DNA from: Candidatus Treponema merdequi
Lineage (GTDB): Bacteria > Spirochaetota > Spirochaetia > Treponematales > Treponemataceae
Direction of reading: 5' to 3'
DNA: 62,373 nucleotides
Assembly: GCA_018064525.1 (NCBI GenBank)
Contig: JAGHVB010000003.1
Span: forward strand, 1 to 62,373
Position numbers and translations under genes: made by a program. Below the pieces are notes generated by a model, which was not told the origin of the DNA, ran no database searches, and saw only the letters and a program-made list of their open reading frames with translations. This document shows, piece by piece, positions 2,774 through 43,424 of the stretch (position 1 is the first letter of the stretch; the number at the start of each line of letters is the position of its first letter).

Positions 2774-3814
2774 ATGAAAATTAAAGCTATTAATTGTTAT
2801 TTTATTTTGTCTGCATTGATTTTACTGTTTGTTACAGGTTGTAATTATGCTTCAAATGAACCTTCGAAGCCGCCGGTATTTATTGATGAATCTATCTTAA
2901 ATACAAAAGCAGGTGTGAGACCTAAAAACGTTATTGGAACAGAAGCTCTCCCTGAGTTTTTGTCAGAGATTACAGATCATATTTATGTTCATGAAAGTGG
3001 TGCAGGTGAGGAAATTTTTCTTACATCTTTATTAAAAGAAGATAATACTTATACCTGTAACTGGTATACAGGAACAACAGGAAAATGGATTCCTGTTACA
3101 GAGGATGAACATGAGGATAATTTAAAAATTACCATTGCAAAGGATACTACATATTTTATTCTTGAATTAGTAAGCCCTGATGGAAAATCTAAAGCATACA
3201 GCAATGTCTGTACTGTTATCTGCGGTTCTGATAAAACTGAAAAAGTTGGAATGATTCTGTATAGAAAAAATCAGGATTTCCTTTTAAAATCAGATTACAG
3301 TTCAGAATATGGTACTCCGATAGGAATTGTATGTGAAGTAAAAGATGATGGAACTCCTAAAAATGTTGTAACGATTAACAAAAATTTACAGAAATATTCA
3401 TGGTGTTCATCTGATGCAGAAGGATTTAATAAAAAAATTCAGACAAGTACAAAAGATGGTAAAGATAACTGGAATATAATAAAAGCTGATGTTTCTGATT
3501 TTGAATTTCCTGGAAAATATCCTGTTTTTGAAGACGCTATTAAACTCACTGACGGAGGAAAGACATGGTTTGTTCCTGCAAGAGATGAACTTATTGCAAT
3601 TAAAATGAACCGTAATGCAATTAATGAAGCAATGGCTAAACTTCCTTCTGAATATAGGATTATTGGATTTTTAGACAGTGGTTATTATATATCAAGTTCT
3701 CAATCTGAAAAATATGATAACAAAATATGGATAGTTTCTTTTGGAAAGTCTGAAGTAGTGCAGGAGACAAAGTCAACAATATCTTGTTATAACATTTTTG
3801 TAGCAGCATATTAA
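2774..3814 (+). CDS. Lipoprotein with C-terminal DUF1566/Lcl-like domain
   Basis: The start is set at the ATG of 2774, not the one at 2768, because AGGAAGG (2761-2767) abuts 2768 but is six bases from 2774. The protein begins with a signal peptide and lipobox FVTGCNYAS. An N-terminal segment KAGVRPKNVIGTEALPEF and a middle beta region (CNWYTGTTGKW) lead to a C-terminal DUF1566-type block with WFVPARDEL and YYISSSQ. It is a clear paralogue of the lipoprotein at 13565 over its whole length (shared KAGVxP, HESGAG/SESGAG, WYTGTTG/WYSGTTG, PARDEL). It probably sits on the cell surface; ligand unknown. It lies 18 bases after the preceding gene. Confidence 0.75.
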   Translation: MKIKAINCYFILSALILLFVTGCNYASNEPSKPPVFIDESILNTKAGVRPKNVIGTEALPEFLSEITDHIYVHESGAGEEIFLTSLLKEDNTYTCNWYTGTTGKWIPVTEDEHEDNLKITIAKDTTYFILELVSPDGKSKAYSNVCTVICGSDKTEKVGMILYRKNQDFLLKSDYSSEYGTPIGIVCEVKDDGTPKNVVTINKNLQKYSWCSSDAEGFNKKIQTSTKDGKDNWNIIKADVSDFEFPGKYPVFEDAIKLTDGGKTWFVPARDELIAIKMNRNAINEAMAKLPSEYRIIGFLDSGYYISSSQSEKYDNKIWIVSFGKSEVVQETKSTISCYNIFVAAY

Positions 3815-3850
3815 TTGATAATAAGTTAAAAGACTAATAAAAAAACGTAC

Positions 3851-4019
3851 GATTGTTAAATATTTCTAAAACTTACGCGAGGGAAGAAAGCAGGGATCAG
3901 CAGGACTTGAAAGGCGGAAAGATAGTTTCCTTGCCGACTTTCATGTCCAGCGACGCCAGCTAGCGGTGCCGGGTTCTGCTTTCTGACCGGAAGTAAGTTT
4001 TTGGAATTGTAATTTAATC
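3851..4019. repeat. Palindromic dispersed repeat, copy 1 (MITE-like or structured RNA)
   Basis: A 169-bp element with imperfect terminal inverted repeats (3851-3876 and 3993-4019), bordered on both sides by CGTACG. The interior can fold into nested stems, such as AGAAAGCAG with CTGCTTTCT and GGAC.TGAAAG with CTTTCATGTCC. A second copy, about 90 percent identical in the 127-bp core, lies at 42412-42581 in the opposite orientation. It fills the gap between the convergent lipoprotein gene (2774) and serS. No credible protein is encoded. I cannot tell whether it is a non-autonomous mobile element, a bidirectional terminator or a small RNA. Confidence 0.8.
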
Positions 4020-4121
4020 GTACGTTTTTTTTAACCACTTTAACAGAAATCTGTGTTAATACGTGTTTAATCTGTGAAATCTGTGGCTAATTTTTTTTCA
4101 TTAACCACCGGGTTTCACTAA

Positions 4122-5396
4122 TTATTTCTTTTCAATCTTATCAAATCCACAGAGAGGTCTTAAAACTTCTGGAACTGTGATAGAACCGTCTTCGTTCTGG
4201 TAGTTTTCGATGATTGCAAGCATTGCTCGTCCTACAGCGATTGCAGTACCGTTGAGCATGTGAACGTATTTGTTCTTTCCATCATCATCCTTAAAGCGAA
4301 CGTTAAGGCGGCGGCTCTGGTAGTCTGTACAGTTAGAAGTAGAAGTTACTTCACCGTATTCACCACCGTTGCGGCCAGGCATCCATGCTTCGAGGTCCCA
4401 TTTTCTGTATGCAGGTGCTCCGAGGTCTCCGGTACATGTATCTACAACATGGAATGGAAGTCCGAGTCCTGTAAAGATTTCTTCTTCGATTAAGCGGAGT
4501 TTTTCGTGAATCTTGTCTGAGTCTTCAGGGAGACAGTAAACAAACATTTCTACTTTATCAAACTGGTGAACTCGGTACAATCCTTTTGAGAACTGACCTG
4601 CAGCTCCTGCTTCGCGGCGGAAACAGTGTGAAAGTCCGCAGTAGAAGAGCGGGAGTTTTGATTTGTCTAAGATTTCGTTTGAGTGGTAACCGCCGAGTGT
4701 GATTTCTGCAGTTGCTACAAGACAAGTTCCTTCTTCTTCGATTGAATATACGTTTGATTCGTTTCCACGCGGATTGAATCCGATTCCTTTGAGAACTTCT
4801 TCTTTTGCAACGTCCGGTGTGATGAACGGAGTAAAGCCGTGTTTTCTCAATGTGTTGAGCGCATACTGGATGAGTGCCTGTTCAAGGAATACAGCATCGT
4901 TTTTAAGATAATAGAACTTAGGTCCTGAAACTTTTGTTCCGCGTTCAAAGTCGATGAGATCGAGCGCTTCCATAAGTTCAACATGATCTTTTGGTTTAAA
5001 TTCAAACTTGCGTGGAGTTCCGACTTTTTTTACTTCGAGGTTTTCTGTGTCGAGTTTTCCAATTGGTGCATCAGGATGCGCCATGTTTGGAATCTGGCGT
5101 GCAGCTTCTTCGAGTTTTTCTTCTACTTCTGCAAGTTCTTTTTCTACGGCAGCAAGTTCATCTTTGATTTTCTTTCCATCTTCGATGTACTTTTTGCGTG
5201 TATCGTCATCGAGCTTCTGTTTCATTGAAGAAGCGTTTGCATTGCGTTTTTCCTGCAATGCCTGACGGTCTGTTACGAGCTTTGTTCTTTTGTCATAAAG
5301 TTCAACAACAATGTCGGCATCTGCTTTCATGTTTCTGTTTTCGATGTTCTTTTTTACTGCATCAAGATTGTCTTTAATAAATTTATAATCTAACAT
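4122..5396 (-). CDS. serS: Seryl-tRNA synthetase
   Basis: 424 residues, the usual bacterial length. It charges tRNA-Ser (and tRNA-Sec precursors) with serine. The N-terminal 110 residues form the long antiparallel coiled-coil arm that grips the tRNA (MLDYKFIKDNLDAVKKNIEN onward). The class II catalytic core follows, with motif 2 (CFRREAGAAG) and motif 3 near the C-terminus (NGTAIAVGRAMLAIIENYQ). A GAGG ribosome site precedes the ATG. It is separated from the downstream lipoprotein gene by 55 bases and from the convergent lipoprotein gene by the palindromic repeat. Confidence 0.98.
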   Translation of the reverse strand: MLDYKFIKDNLDAVKKNIENRNMKADADIVVELYDKRTKLVTDRQALQEKRNANASSMKQKLDDDTRKKYIEDGKKIKDELAAVEKELAEVEEKLEEAARQIPNMAHPDAPIGKLDTENLEVKKVGTPRKFEFKPKDHVELMEALDLIDFERGTKVSGPKFYYLKNDAVFLEQALIQYALNTLRKHGFTPFITPDVAKEEVLKGIGFNPRGNESNVYSIEEEGTCLVATAEITLGGYHSNEILDKSKLPLFYCGLSHCFRREAGAAGQFSKGLYRVHQFDKVEMFVYCLPEDSDKIHEKLRLIEEEIFTGLGLPFHVVDTCTGDLGAPAYRKWDLEAWMPGRNGGEYGEVTSTSNCTDYQSRRLNVRFKDDDGKNKYVHMLNGTAIAVGRAMLAIIENYQNEDGSITVPEVLRPLCGFDKIEKK

Positions 5397-27842: not shown

Positions 27843-29218
27843 AAGGCGTAGAATACTGCGGTGTAAAATCTGTTGACGGACCTATCGTTGTAGTTAAGCG
27901 TTCAGAAGATGTTTCATTTAACGAAACTGTTTATGTTCGAGATCGTTTTGGTGAAAAGAGAACTGGCCGTGTAATCGATTTGTCAGAAGATGTTGCTATC
28001 GTTCAGATTTTCGGTTCAACAACTGGAATTGACCTTCAGGATACGACAGTGGAATTTCTTGAAGAGCCTCTCGAATTGAGAGTCGGACCTGATCTGCTTG
28101 GCCGTATCTTTAACGGACTTGGAGAACCAGTAGACGGTCTTTCTCCGATTGTCTCATCACAGAAAATCAACGTAAACGGAAACCCGATTAACCCGTATGC
28201 CCGCGTTTATCCGAGGGACTTTATCCAGACAGGAATCTCTTCTATCGACGGAATGAATACTTTGATCCGTGGTCAGAAACTTCCGATTTTCTCTGGTAAC
28301 GGTCTTGCTCACAACAGACTTGCAGCTCAGATTATCCGTCAGGCAAAACTCCGCTCGAGCGATGATCAGTTCGTAATGGTATTTGCCGGAATGGGAATTA
28401 AATATGACGTTGCTCAGTTTTTCAGAAATACATTTGAAGAGTCTGGTGTACTTTCAAAAGTAGTTATGTTCCAGTCGCTTGCTGATGCTCCTTCAATTGA
28501 ACGAATCATCACTCCGCGCTGTGCATTGACTGCTGCAGAATATCTTGCTTACGAAAAAGGAATGCACGTACTTGTCGTATTGACTGATATGACAAACTAC
28601 TGCGAAGCCCTCCGTGAAATTTCTACAACTCGTGGTGAAGTTCCTGGCCGTAAAGGATATCCTGGATACCTCTATTCTGACCTTGCAGAGATTTACGAAA
28701 GAGCCGGAAAGATAAAGGGCAGTGAAGGTTCAATCACACAGATTCCGATTCTGACAATGCCTAACGATGATATTTCTCATCCTATTCCAGACTTGACAGG
28801 ATACATCACAGAAGGACAGATTACTCTTAACCGTGAACTTTCACAGAAAGGAATGTATCCACCTGTTGCAGTTCTTCCGTCACTCAGCCGTTTGATGAAA
28901 GACGGAATCGGTGAAGGAATGACACGTGATGACCATGCCGCAGTTTCGAGCCAGCTTTTTGCATGCTACTCAAAAGTGAAATCAATCAGAAACCTCGCTG
29001 CAATCATCGGTGAAGAAGAACTTTCAGAACTTGATAAACTGTATCTTCACTTTGGTGACAGATTCGAAAATGAATTTCTTACTCAGGGTGAGTACGAAGA
29101 CAGAACAATCGATCAGACACTTGATATCGGCTGGAGTCTTTTAAAGATTCTTCCGACAGAAGAACTTACACGTATCAAACCTGAGTTGATTGAAAAATAT
29201 ATTGGAAGAAATAATTAA
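27839..29218 (+). CDS. atpB: V-type ATP synthase subunit B
   Basis: 459 residues. Non-catalytic head subunit. It shares the A-subunit fold but lacks the canonical P-loop (the position reads [16 protein letters not shown], as in V-type B subunits). Conserved [14 protein letters not shown] and [15 protein letters not shown] are present. GGAGG lies inside the end of atpA, four-base overlap. Confidence 0.98.
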
Positions 29219-41577: not shown

Positions 41578-42378
41578 ATGAAAGATATTGCAGGCGCTTC
41601 AAAAAAAGTAAAAGAAATGGTCCGCGAAAACATCCGTCTTGCAGAAGAAGAGGGACGTTTTAATGATGACGTCCAGCCTGTTGATTGGGAAGGTATGCAG
41701 AAAGTTACTGCGGATTTTGTTTATCTTCCGAAAAATCCTGTTAAAGTAATCTGGTCATGGATTGCGCGCGGGCTTGCATTTGTACTTGCAAAGCCGCTTT
41801 GTTTTTTTGGACTGGGTTCTGCAAAAATCAAAGGTCGTAAAAATTTTAAAGGCATTAAGGCTGCAGTTGTAACCTGTAATCATGTTCATATTTTTGATAC
41901 TTTCTTTGTAAGGGCGGCAGCTGCCGGACATAAGCTCTATATTACAGTTGCAGAATTTAACAATATGAAAGGTCCTCTTGGTGCATTATTGAGGGGCGCC
42001 GGATGTATTCCGTTTTCTGATAATTTTGGTGCAATGAAAAACCTTACAAAAACAGTTTCTTATCTTCTTAAAAAAAAGAAATTCGTTTTATTTTATCCTG
42101 AAAAAGCAATGTGGCCACGTTATGAAAAGCCAAGACCTTTCATTGAAGGTGCTTTCCACGCAGCTGTTACAAATAATGTTCCTGTTGTTCCGACTTTTAT
42201 TATGTTTAAGAATCCGACAGGTGTTAAAAAAATATTCCGCAGAAAAAAAATCGGCGTACTACATGTATTGCCACCGGTTTATCCGCGTGAAGATCTTTCA
42301 AAAAAAGAAAATATTGAATACATGAAAAATACAGTTTATGAAATGCTTAAAAAACTGTACGCAGAAAATAAAGATTAA
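41578..42378 (+). CDS. 1-acyl-sn-glycerol-3-phosphate acyltransferase family protein
   Basis: 266 residues. PlsC-type acyltransferase: the HX4D catalytic motif is CNHVHIFDTF, the substrate motif is FYPEKAMWPRYEKPRPF (in place of EGTRS), and VPVVPTFIMFKNP is the fourth block. A hydrophobic segment near 60-75 tethers it to the membrane. The gene begins on the base after the GT2 stop, so it is translationally coupled. It may acylate the product of the neighbouring glycosyltransferase instead of making phosphatidic acid; this is inference from context. Confidence 0.87.
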   Translation: MKDIAGASKKVKEMVRENIRLAEEEGRFNDDVQPVDWEGMQKVTADFVYLPKNPVKVIWSWIARGLAFVLAKPLCFFGLGSAKIKGRKNFKGIKAAVVTCNHVHIFDTFFVRAAAAGHKLYITVAEFNNMKGPLGALLRGAGCIPFSDNFGAMKNLTKTVSYLLKKKKFVLFYPEKAMWPRYEKPRPFIEGAFHAAVTNNVPVVPTFIMFKNPTGVKKIFRRKKIGVLHVLPPVYPREDLSKKENIEYMKNTVYEMLKKLYAENKD

Positions 42379-42411
42379 TCTGCAGCTTTGATGTAAATTA
42401 AAAAATAGAAC

Positions 42412-42581
42412 GATTAAGTTACAATCCCCAAAATTTACTTCCGGTCAGAAAGCAGAGACCGGCACCGCTAGCTAGCGTCGCTGGACATGAAAGTCGGTAA
42501 GGAAACTTTCTTTCCGTCTTTCAAGTCCTGCCGGTCTCTGCTTTCTTCCCTCTCGTAAATTTTGGGGATTATAATTTAATT
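42412..42581. repeat. Palindromic dispersed repeat, copy 2 (inverted relative to copy 1)
   Basis: 170 bp with 27-base terminal inverted repeats (42412-42438 and 42555-42581) that match at 24 positions. The core, read on the other strand, is about 90 percent identical to 3851-4019. The long stem AGACCGGC/GCCGGTCT is perfectly paired here. It again fills a gap between convergent genes (the acyltransferase and the TPR paralogue). No protein is encoded. Confidence 0.8.
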
Positions 42582-42593
42582 TAATCTTATATT

Positions 42594-43424
42594 TTAATAA
42601 TTTTTGTCGTAGATCTTTTTAAGAGTGCGGTTGTTTGGATAGTATGCTTTTGCTTTGTCATACCATATTTTTGCCGAATCGTTATCATGTCTTTTTAAGA
42701 ATGAATCTCCGATTGCAATTAAAAAATTAAAGCGGTCAAATTTTTCAAAATGCAGATTTTCATCATTATAATTTGAATACATTTTATTATAGCCGCGTTT
42801 GTAGTTTGCAAAAAATTCAGGAGCATACAAATCCTGAGCCCACTGGTAAAAATATGCAGTTCCGTTTTTAGGATCGAGGGCAATTGCTTTTTTTGCATTT
42901 GACTGAACTTTAAGTCCGTTTCCGATGACGTATGAAGTTGGTTTTACGGTACAGTTTGAAGAGAGGCACATAACATAAATCAGAACGGCGTCAGAACGGT
43001 TTTCAAGTTTGATTGCTTTTTGTGCATGTTCTATTCCGCTGTCAAAATATGATGCGGCTTTTGCTTTTTTCTGTTTTATTGTTTCTGATGCATTTTCATT
43101 TTTATCTTTTGTATCATTGATGTTTTTTATTTTCTGGATACTTTCGAGGTCATATTCACCCATTGAATACATTCCATATAAATAATCACATCGCGCAAAC
43201 TGGACTTCTTTCTCGTATTCAGATGCATCTTCTGAAATTGATGAAACTGCATCTGAATAGAGTCTGTCTGCTTCTTCTTCAGATGCAATTGAATTGTTGT
43301 AATATGCTTCAATAAAATTGTAAAGCGCTTCAGTATATTCAACATCACGTTTGTATTCCTGTGCAAAGAGAACAGTGGAAAAAACAGAAAGTAATAATAC
43401 CGAAAGACACTTTAACTTTTTCAT
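42594..43424 (-). CDS. Periplasmic TPR-like protein, paralogue B
   Basis: 276 residues, signal peptide (LLLSVFSTVLFAQ). Paralogous to the protein at 36450: YKRDVEYTEALYNFIEAYYN, the SSNCTVKP motif, and NAKKAIALDPKNGTAYF. Helical, TPR-like; exported. Its ATG follows the thrH stop directly (TAA-ATG), so it is translated from the thrH transcript. Function unknown. Together with its paralogue it brackets the M16/GT2/acyltransferase block in inverted orientation. Confidence 0.75.
   Translation of the reverse strand: MKKLKCLSVLLLSVFSTVLFAQEYKRDVEYTEALYNFIEAYYNNSIASEEEADRLYSDAVSSISEDASEYEKEVQFARCDYLYGMYSMGEYDLESIQKIKNINDTKDKNENASETIKQKKAKAASYFDSGIEHAQKAIKLENRSDAVLIYVMCLSSNCTVKPTSYVIGNGLKVQSNAKKAIALDPKNGTAYFYQWAQDLYAPEFFANYKRGYNKMYSNYNDENLHFEKFDRFNFLIAIGDSFLKRHDNDSAKIWYDKAKAYYPNNRTLKKIYDKNY

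Follow-up and report, generated by a model that had tools for sequence, protein, structure and literature searches.

Gut and rumen treponemes carry a probable family of non-autonomous inverted-repeat transposons whose conserved fold apparently acts as DNA

The window, by which we mean the whole 62,373-nt stretch of Candidatus Treponema merdequi contig JAGHVB010000003.1 analysed here, holds two copies of a palindromic element in mutually inverted orientation that are 89% identical over 167 nt by nucleotide search; a 32-base diagnostic stretch occurs in it twice, compared to 0 occurrences expected from shuffles. Copy 1 lies between two convergent genes, a lipoprotein-like ORF (ending at 3814, forward strand) and a serS-like ORF (ending at 4122, reverse strand), and copy 2 likewise between an acyltransferase-like ORF (ending at 42378, forward) and an ORF ending at 42594 (reverse), the gene names at both sites being assigned by eye. 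Each copy forms one long imperfect hairpin, with fold z scores against shuffles of −7.6 (RNA) and −8.6 (DNA) for copy 1 and of −13.7 (RNA) and −13.4 (DNA) for copy 2. A previous sequence-only reading had described two similar elements in opposite orientation here, which our search bears out; the 170 bp that it gave for them falls short of the full palindromes, which measure ∼193 bp each. The paired arm differences on which it drew (ACTTAC/GTAAGT compared to ATTTAC/GTAAAT, and CCCC/GGGG in copy 2) are present in the sequence. The two copies comprise the following features:

∼3840..4032, reverse strand: copy 1, whole palindrome including outer arms, with TIR-like cgtacgatt/aatcgtacg (sequence and folds)
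3868..4001, reverse strand: copy 1, conserved core (covariance model, 143.4 bits, E 8e-41, a score owed partly to construction, as the model was built from own-genome copies)
3877..3880, reverse strand: copy 1, right side (TCGC) of the basal 4x4 internal loop (alignments A2, A6 and A7)
3922..3928, reverse strand: copy 1, conserved AAACTAT apical loop (alignments A2, A6 and A7)
3949..3966, reverse strand: copy 1, conserved asymmetric bulge CCGCTAGCTGGCGTCGCT with a small self-complementary hairpin (alignments A2, A6 and A7)
3989..3992, reverse strand: copy 1, left side (TTCC) of the basal 4x4 internal loop (alignments A2, A6 and A7)
∼42402..42595, forward strand: copy 2, whole palindrome including outer arms (sequence and folds)
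42430..42563, forward strand: copy 2, conserved core (covariance model, 157.7 bits, E 2.5e-45, with the same caveat on the score)
42465..42482, forward strand: copy 2, conserved bulge CCGCTAGCTAGCGTCGCT (diagnostic-stretch count and alignment A2)

Element copies range from 150 to 230 nt in length and share one architecture. From the outside inward, the outer arms are followed by a basal internal loop (e.g. TCCC opposite TCGC), two AG/CT or GG/CC base pairs, a 2x2 loop (TC/TC) and a variable stem, and then by the 18-nt bulge, which has the copy 2 sequence or variants that surround a self-complementary centre (GCTAGC, GATATC, or GGTACC). Inward of the bulge comes a second variable stem with an A·A mismatch, leading to the AAACTAT loop, which in a long type of the element precedes a small GCCGC–GCGGC hairpin. 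The bulge, the internal loops, and the AAACTAT loop are kept across species, while stems and terminal inverted repeats (TIRs) vary. Thinning at ∼80% identity reduced 112 copies to 45, which supplied alignment A6 (18 short copies) and alignment A7 (26 long copies, leaving out one of 27). Conservation in A6 is higher in unpaired than in paired columns (mean frequency of the commonest base 0.84 compared to 0.71), and in A7 the two are about equal (0.75 and 0.74).

Seven close copies of the element turn up by nucleotide search in the genome that the window comes from (2.70 Mb in 87 contigs), along with two short matches on contig C68; the latter are diverged copies, with most of the stem sequence rewritten and the unpaired parts unchanged. 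A covariance model (R1) built from these nine copies finds a tenth, on contig C85, and matches 48 of 98 congeneric genomes (E ≤ 0.01); a second model (R2), for which 26 long copies from other genomes served as input, matches 54 of the 98 (E ≤ 0.001). Such a search had been proposed in the sequence-only reading, which named a lack of further copies and of covariation as grounds for abandoning its interpretation; both are decisively present. Across the phylum, R2 has matches in 27 of 392 Spirochaetota genomes, belonging to 3 of 167 genera, all in one family. Five genomes searched more fully carry 61, 59, 41, 27, and 13 copies, and two sets of 20 regions each were fetched from the longer R1 match list. 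Carriers among the pattern-scan matches listed are rumen and gut Treponema, including T. bryantii, Treponema sp. JC4, and C6A8; model search covered 80 of these 120 loci (L059–L138), and we take a match in an Armatimonadetes record to be due to chance, as the model finds nothing there. No match was found in viral contigs, plasmids, or phages. In a single-contig genome with 27 copies (G044), 12 lie at 29000–52000 and 2686000–2728000, within ∼52 kb either side of the contig start. As to orientation relative to the direction of replication, by our own count the strand order of the 27 copies listed for another genome (G261) shows no clustering. Several contigs terminate inside element copies. On own-genome contig C14 (L012:10799–15871), two copies in the same orientation flank 5 kb of DNA in which a transporter and two small genes resembling leader peptides are encoded; the corresponding site of a sister-species genome, G007, lacks this DNA.

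Young copies of the element have a length of 212–215 bp, TIRs of ∼20 bp (CAGGGCnnnCGCATTATAAA) and a 10-bp target-site duplication (TSD). Across all loci scanned, 61 distinct elements are bounded by CAGGGCnnnCGCATTATA. Perfect 10-bp TSDs flank 22 of these and TSDs with at most two mismatches flank 36, compared to 5 of 3660 control pairings of left and right flanks taken from different elements; the 10-bp flanks of 22 of the 61 have at least five mismatches. All 61 contain the core motif, in part through ascertainment, since most loci were fetched for their core. One genome (G093) has many copies with identical model scores, and the 20 fetched from the copies listed there by R2 have in common the ends of a 215-bp unit running from CAGGGCTTCCGCATTATAAAA to its inverted copy, with both ends recognised by script in 18 and a 10-bp TSD with at most two mismatches in 10. 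TSDs do not exceed the control in the window's genome or in G046, G056, G050, and G035. Transposition with a 10-bp TSD is thus demonstrated solely for the sub-lineage ending in CAGGGC, a TIR type found in many species. G044 and G046 carry different shared arms, and copies in the window's genome have paired outer arms of other sequence and no exact common end.

For the window copies, the search for empty sites and target duplications suggested in the sequence-only reading has a divided outcome: both sites are empty in the sister-species genome G007, and a TSD is found at neither copy. Classing these two copies as non-autonomous inverted-repeat transposons draws on the homology of their cores, on outer arms that pair, on dispersal, and on the empty sister-species sites. 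In our best explanation they would be relatively old representatives of a sub-lineage that has other outer arms, and their TSDs would have faded beyond recognition.

Outer arms score higher in pairing with their own partner than across copies in each of the five genomes compared (16.5 compared to 9.9 in the window's genome). A clean empty site is available for one G050 copy (L242) by comparison with G035: both arms lie within the inserted DNA, with a 1-bp junction overlap and no TSD. Inverted target duplication as the origin of copy-specific arms, and insertion into pre-existing palindromes, are both rejected at this site because the arms are inside the insert. At another site, two relatives lack the element and a third carries it with both arms changed in concert, from AACAAATGC/GCATTTGTT to AAATAAACGC/GCGTTTATTT.

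We also observed several less regular arrangements. Between the same genes of two closely related species, the element is inverted in L281 (G064, contig C21) relative to L235 (G050), through either arm-to-arm inversion or independent insertion. In L354, a young copy sits directly behind an apparent truncated left half of another that is broken at the bulge hairpin. Where G007 carries the element, own-genome contig C17 (L015:2836–3075) instead holds another palindromic insert whose base is similar, either a diverged relative or a sign of a hotspot behind a stop codon. A second hairpin type lies beside the element in inverted orientation in G050 (L234:2186–2356, L236:2200–2370, and L238:1793–1963); it has a similar base and an AAGATGyrCAT loop replacing the bulge and AAACTAT loop, and is dispersed in G035 and G075 too.

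We conclude that the element is very probably a non-autonomous inverted-repeat transposon (MITE) of gut and rumen treponemes with a folded interior that would be read as DNA. Among the options raised by the sequence-only reading, the MITE gains support from the TIRs and 10-bp TSDs of young copies. Exact-end TIRs, TSDs, and insertion polymorphism between close genomes are all found; copies are intergenic, dispersed, and present or absent between close species; the 212–215 bp leave no space for a transposase gene; and the interior holds one hairpin architecture while its paired sequence swaps in complementary pairs. A DDE-type transposase encoded elsewhere would cut at the TIRs and duplicate 10 bp of target. 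ISAs1-type insertion sequences have CAGGG-like ends and TSDs of 8–10 bp, and an ISAs1-like DDE enzyme is our guess for the parent transposase; a literature search on ISAs1 gave nothing usable. No longer TIR-bounded unit was found, as no locus scanned has a TIR pair 400–6000 bp apart. Neither a transposase with element ends in 18 small G093 contigs (two of which read as masked) nor a transposase-like shared gene family among 2307 ORFs from 145 loci was found; the commonest ORF cluster, in 25 loci, looks by eye like ABC transporters, and one transposase candidate is an M23 peptidase.

Similar elements include RUP, ERIC, and Correia/NEMIS, which are bacterial MITEs or non-autonomous derivatives of insertion sequences. 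MITEAba12 is a further element of this kind. As in such elements, the copies described here are short, gene-less, palindromic, intergenic, and numerous, with TIRs and, when young, a TSD. Unlike them, the element retains its interior architecture and unpaired motifs in many species despite changing stems and TIRs, and its TIR types differ between genomes that share one core. It is conceivable, if rather unlikely, that the folded core is a stand-alone DNA-structure signal, read by some protein as single strand or cruciform and combined with different TIRs in different species (CAGGGC in many of them, other arms in G044, G046, and the window's genome), the core and not the TIR being what selection preserves. 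In that case a protein would recognise this mobile element by its shape and not its sequence, in a system distinct from HUH/REP and from integrons.

Covariation across copies supports the claim of the sequence-only reading that the folded form matters. Both sides change in 42 of 45 pairs in A7 and in 39 of 45 in A6, each a MAFFT sequence alignment not fitted to structure and judged by the RNAalifold consensus of the identical rows; in the alignment of nine own-genome copies, the count is 26 of 50. In A7, 93.0% of cells are paired, compared to 71.9% when shuffled, and the covariation score is 0.561, compared to 0.095–0.127 with slid partners. RNA helices evolve through G–U pairs, whose mirror on the opposite strand is A–C. 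An RNA made from one strand or the other would thus be expected to show a clear excess of one of the two types. The 1947 pair cells of A6 and A7, counted over pairs that are at least 60% Watson–Crick, comprise 1796 Watson–Crick, 30 G–T, 47 A–C, and 74 other cells, with a bootstrap 95% interval for GT/(GT+AC) of 0.30–0.48; acceptor and T stems of tRNAs encoded in these loci gave 25 G–T and 7 A–C, in a rough control where 49 of 240 cells were neither standard nor G–T or A–C. As G–T is not commoner than A–C, we read the fold as a hairpin or cruciform that apparently matters as DNA rather than as RNA. The folded interior would be kept because a protein, either the transposase or a host factor, reads the single strand or cruciform as DNA, a role suggested by the lack of an RNA-type G–U surplus on either strand.

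One alternative, though an improbable one, is a structural RNA (a small RNA, bidirectional terminator, or mRNA-stability element) spread by insertion and kept for its RNA fold. Covariation alone cannot separate RNA from DNA, and the strong RNA folds and the A-tract and T-tract at the outer ends would suit such an RNA. Structured DNA motifs among RNA candidates are already a recognised source of confusion, according to PMC8632094. The pair-type balance argues against this alternative, as does gene context. We placed 86 copies relative to genes: 36 lie in divergent gaps, 30 in codirectional gaps, and 18 in convergent gaps, the other 2 overlapping an ORF of ≥150 aa. The convergent setting that the sequence-only reading had reported is therefore true of both window copies and not general. 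Element-free gaps of 150–1500 bp in the same loci are divergent in 15 cases, codirectional in 35, and convergent in 13. Copies thus favour divergent gaps (36/84 compared to 15/63, Fisher p 0.02), which speaks against a terminator role. An intrinsic terminator is also rejected at copy 1, where a terminator scan gives no match, and with it the bidirectional terminator entertained earlier. A small RNA, another of the earlier suggestions, fares no better: no family in Rfam 15 matches the element by covariance-model search, no conserved promoter is seen by eye around the copies, and G–U pairs are not enriched. The Rfam motifs TD-1 and TD-2 (RF03155 and RF03162; TD for their Treponema denticola origin) resemble the element in being structured treponeme motifs, and differ from it in that neither matches the element itself. 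A sub-threshold TD-1 match (44.2 bits, cut-off 64.5) in L026:672–771, with TD-2 on the other strand, falls on a separate hairpin, ∼220 bp away from a copy of the element.

Single-strand movement of a REP/BIME-like element by a RAYT-kind Y1 (HUH) transposase would explain structure recognition, the absence of TSDs in some lineages, and the inverted pairs ∼40 bp apart. We nevertheless judge this very improbable. REP movement is not expected to make TSDs, yet young copies of the element have them at 10 bp. Y1_Tnp genes (PF01797) occur in 22 of 98 genomes, and none is found in the high-copy genomes G035, G050, G063, G074, G075, G045, and G064. The window's own genome has one such gene, IS200-like, at G000:C62:28688–29020, and no link between it and the element is seen. 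Together, the TSDs and the missing Y1 genes largely refute the REP/RAYT explanation. According to PMC8266576, REP systems consist of 20–50-nt palindromes with GTAG and a Y1 transposase. The element shares with REP/BIME/REPIN systems that have a RAYT (TnpAREP) its intergenic palindromes, conserved mismatches, and inverted pairs; it is, however, 150–230 nt long and has no GTAG foot.

It is likewise highly unlikely that the element is a decaying palindrome whose fold is free of selection and whose arms are kept alike solely by quasi-palindrome correction, through template switching during replication. The outer flanks, being copy-specific inverted repeats that pair best with themselves, fit such a process, as do the few G–T intermediates. 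Correction would, however, also erase the bulge and internal loops, both of which are kept, and dispersal with TSDs requires transposition. At sites shared by two genomes, with both directions counted, 31 changes are both-sided, 8 give G–T, 18 give A–C, and 25 are broken, which puts one-sided changes roughly level with two-sided ones. Quasi-palindrome correction is therefore insufficient alone, and may act additionally on the outer arms.

The idea that an integron integrase uses the element as an attC-like site can practically be dismissed, as the sequence-only reading had correctly done: attC sites are also hairpins with conserved unpaired extrahelical bases and variable stems whose fold acts as DNA, but the element has no RYYYAAC/GTTRRRY boxes, its copies are not in cassette arrays, and integrases above the curated cut-off, present in 28 of 98 congeneric genomes, show no positive association with it (by our comparison, they occur in 11 of the 48 genomes that have the element and in 17 of the 50 that lack it). 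Part of the box definition is given in PMC8632094. One such integrase lies at G042:C1:681914–682861, with others in 27 further genomes, and attC-like sites are seen in L302. Those of G042 are ∼60–70 nt long with a TAACA..TGTTAGGC motif that is absent from the element, and R2 finds nothing convincing in the integron regions fetched (best score 16.6 bits).

We met no description of the element in Rfam or in the titles and abstract beginnings of the open-access literature, and three search words are absent from PMC2267715. In partial agreement with the sequence-only reading, our verdict is that the copies form a new family of MITEs in which an unusual DNA fold is conserved. The repeat is abundant in gut and rumen treponemes, reaching 61 copies in ∼3 Mb, and it breaks metagenome assemblies. 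Its clear covariation with no G–U surplus offers a simple test for separating conserved DNA folds from RNAs. The copies are also ready substrates for finding the protein that would read the fold.
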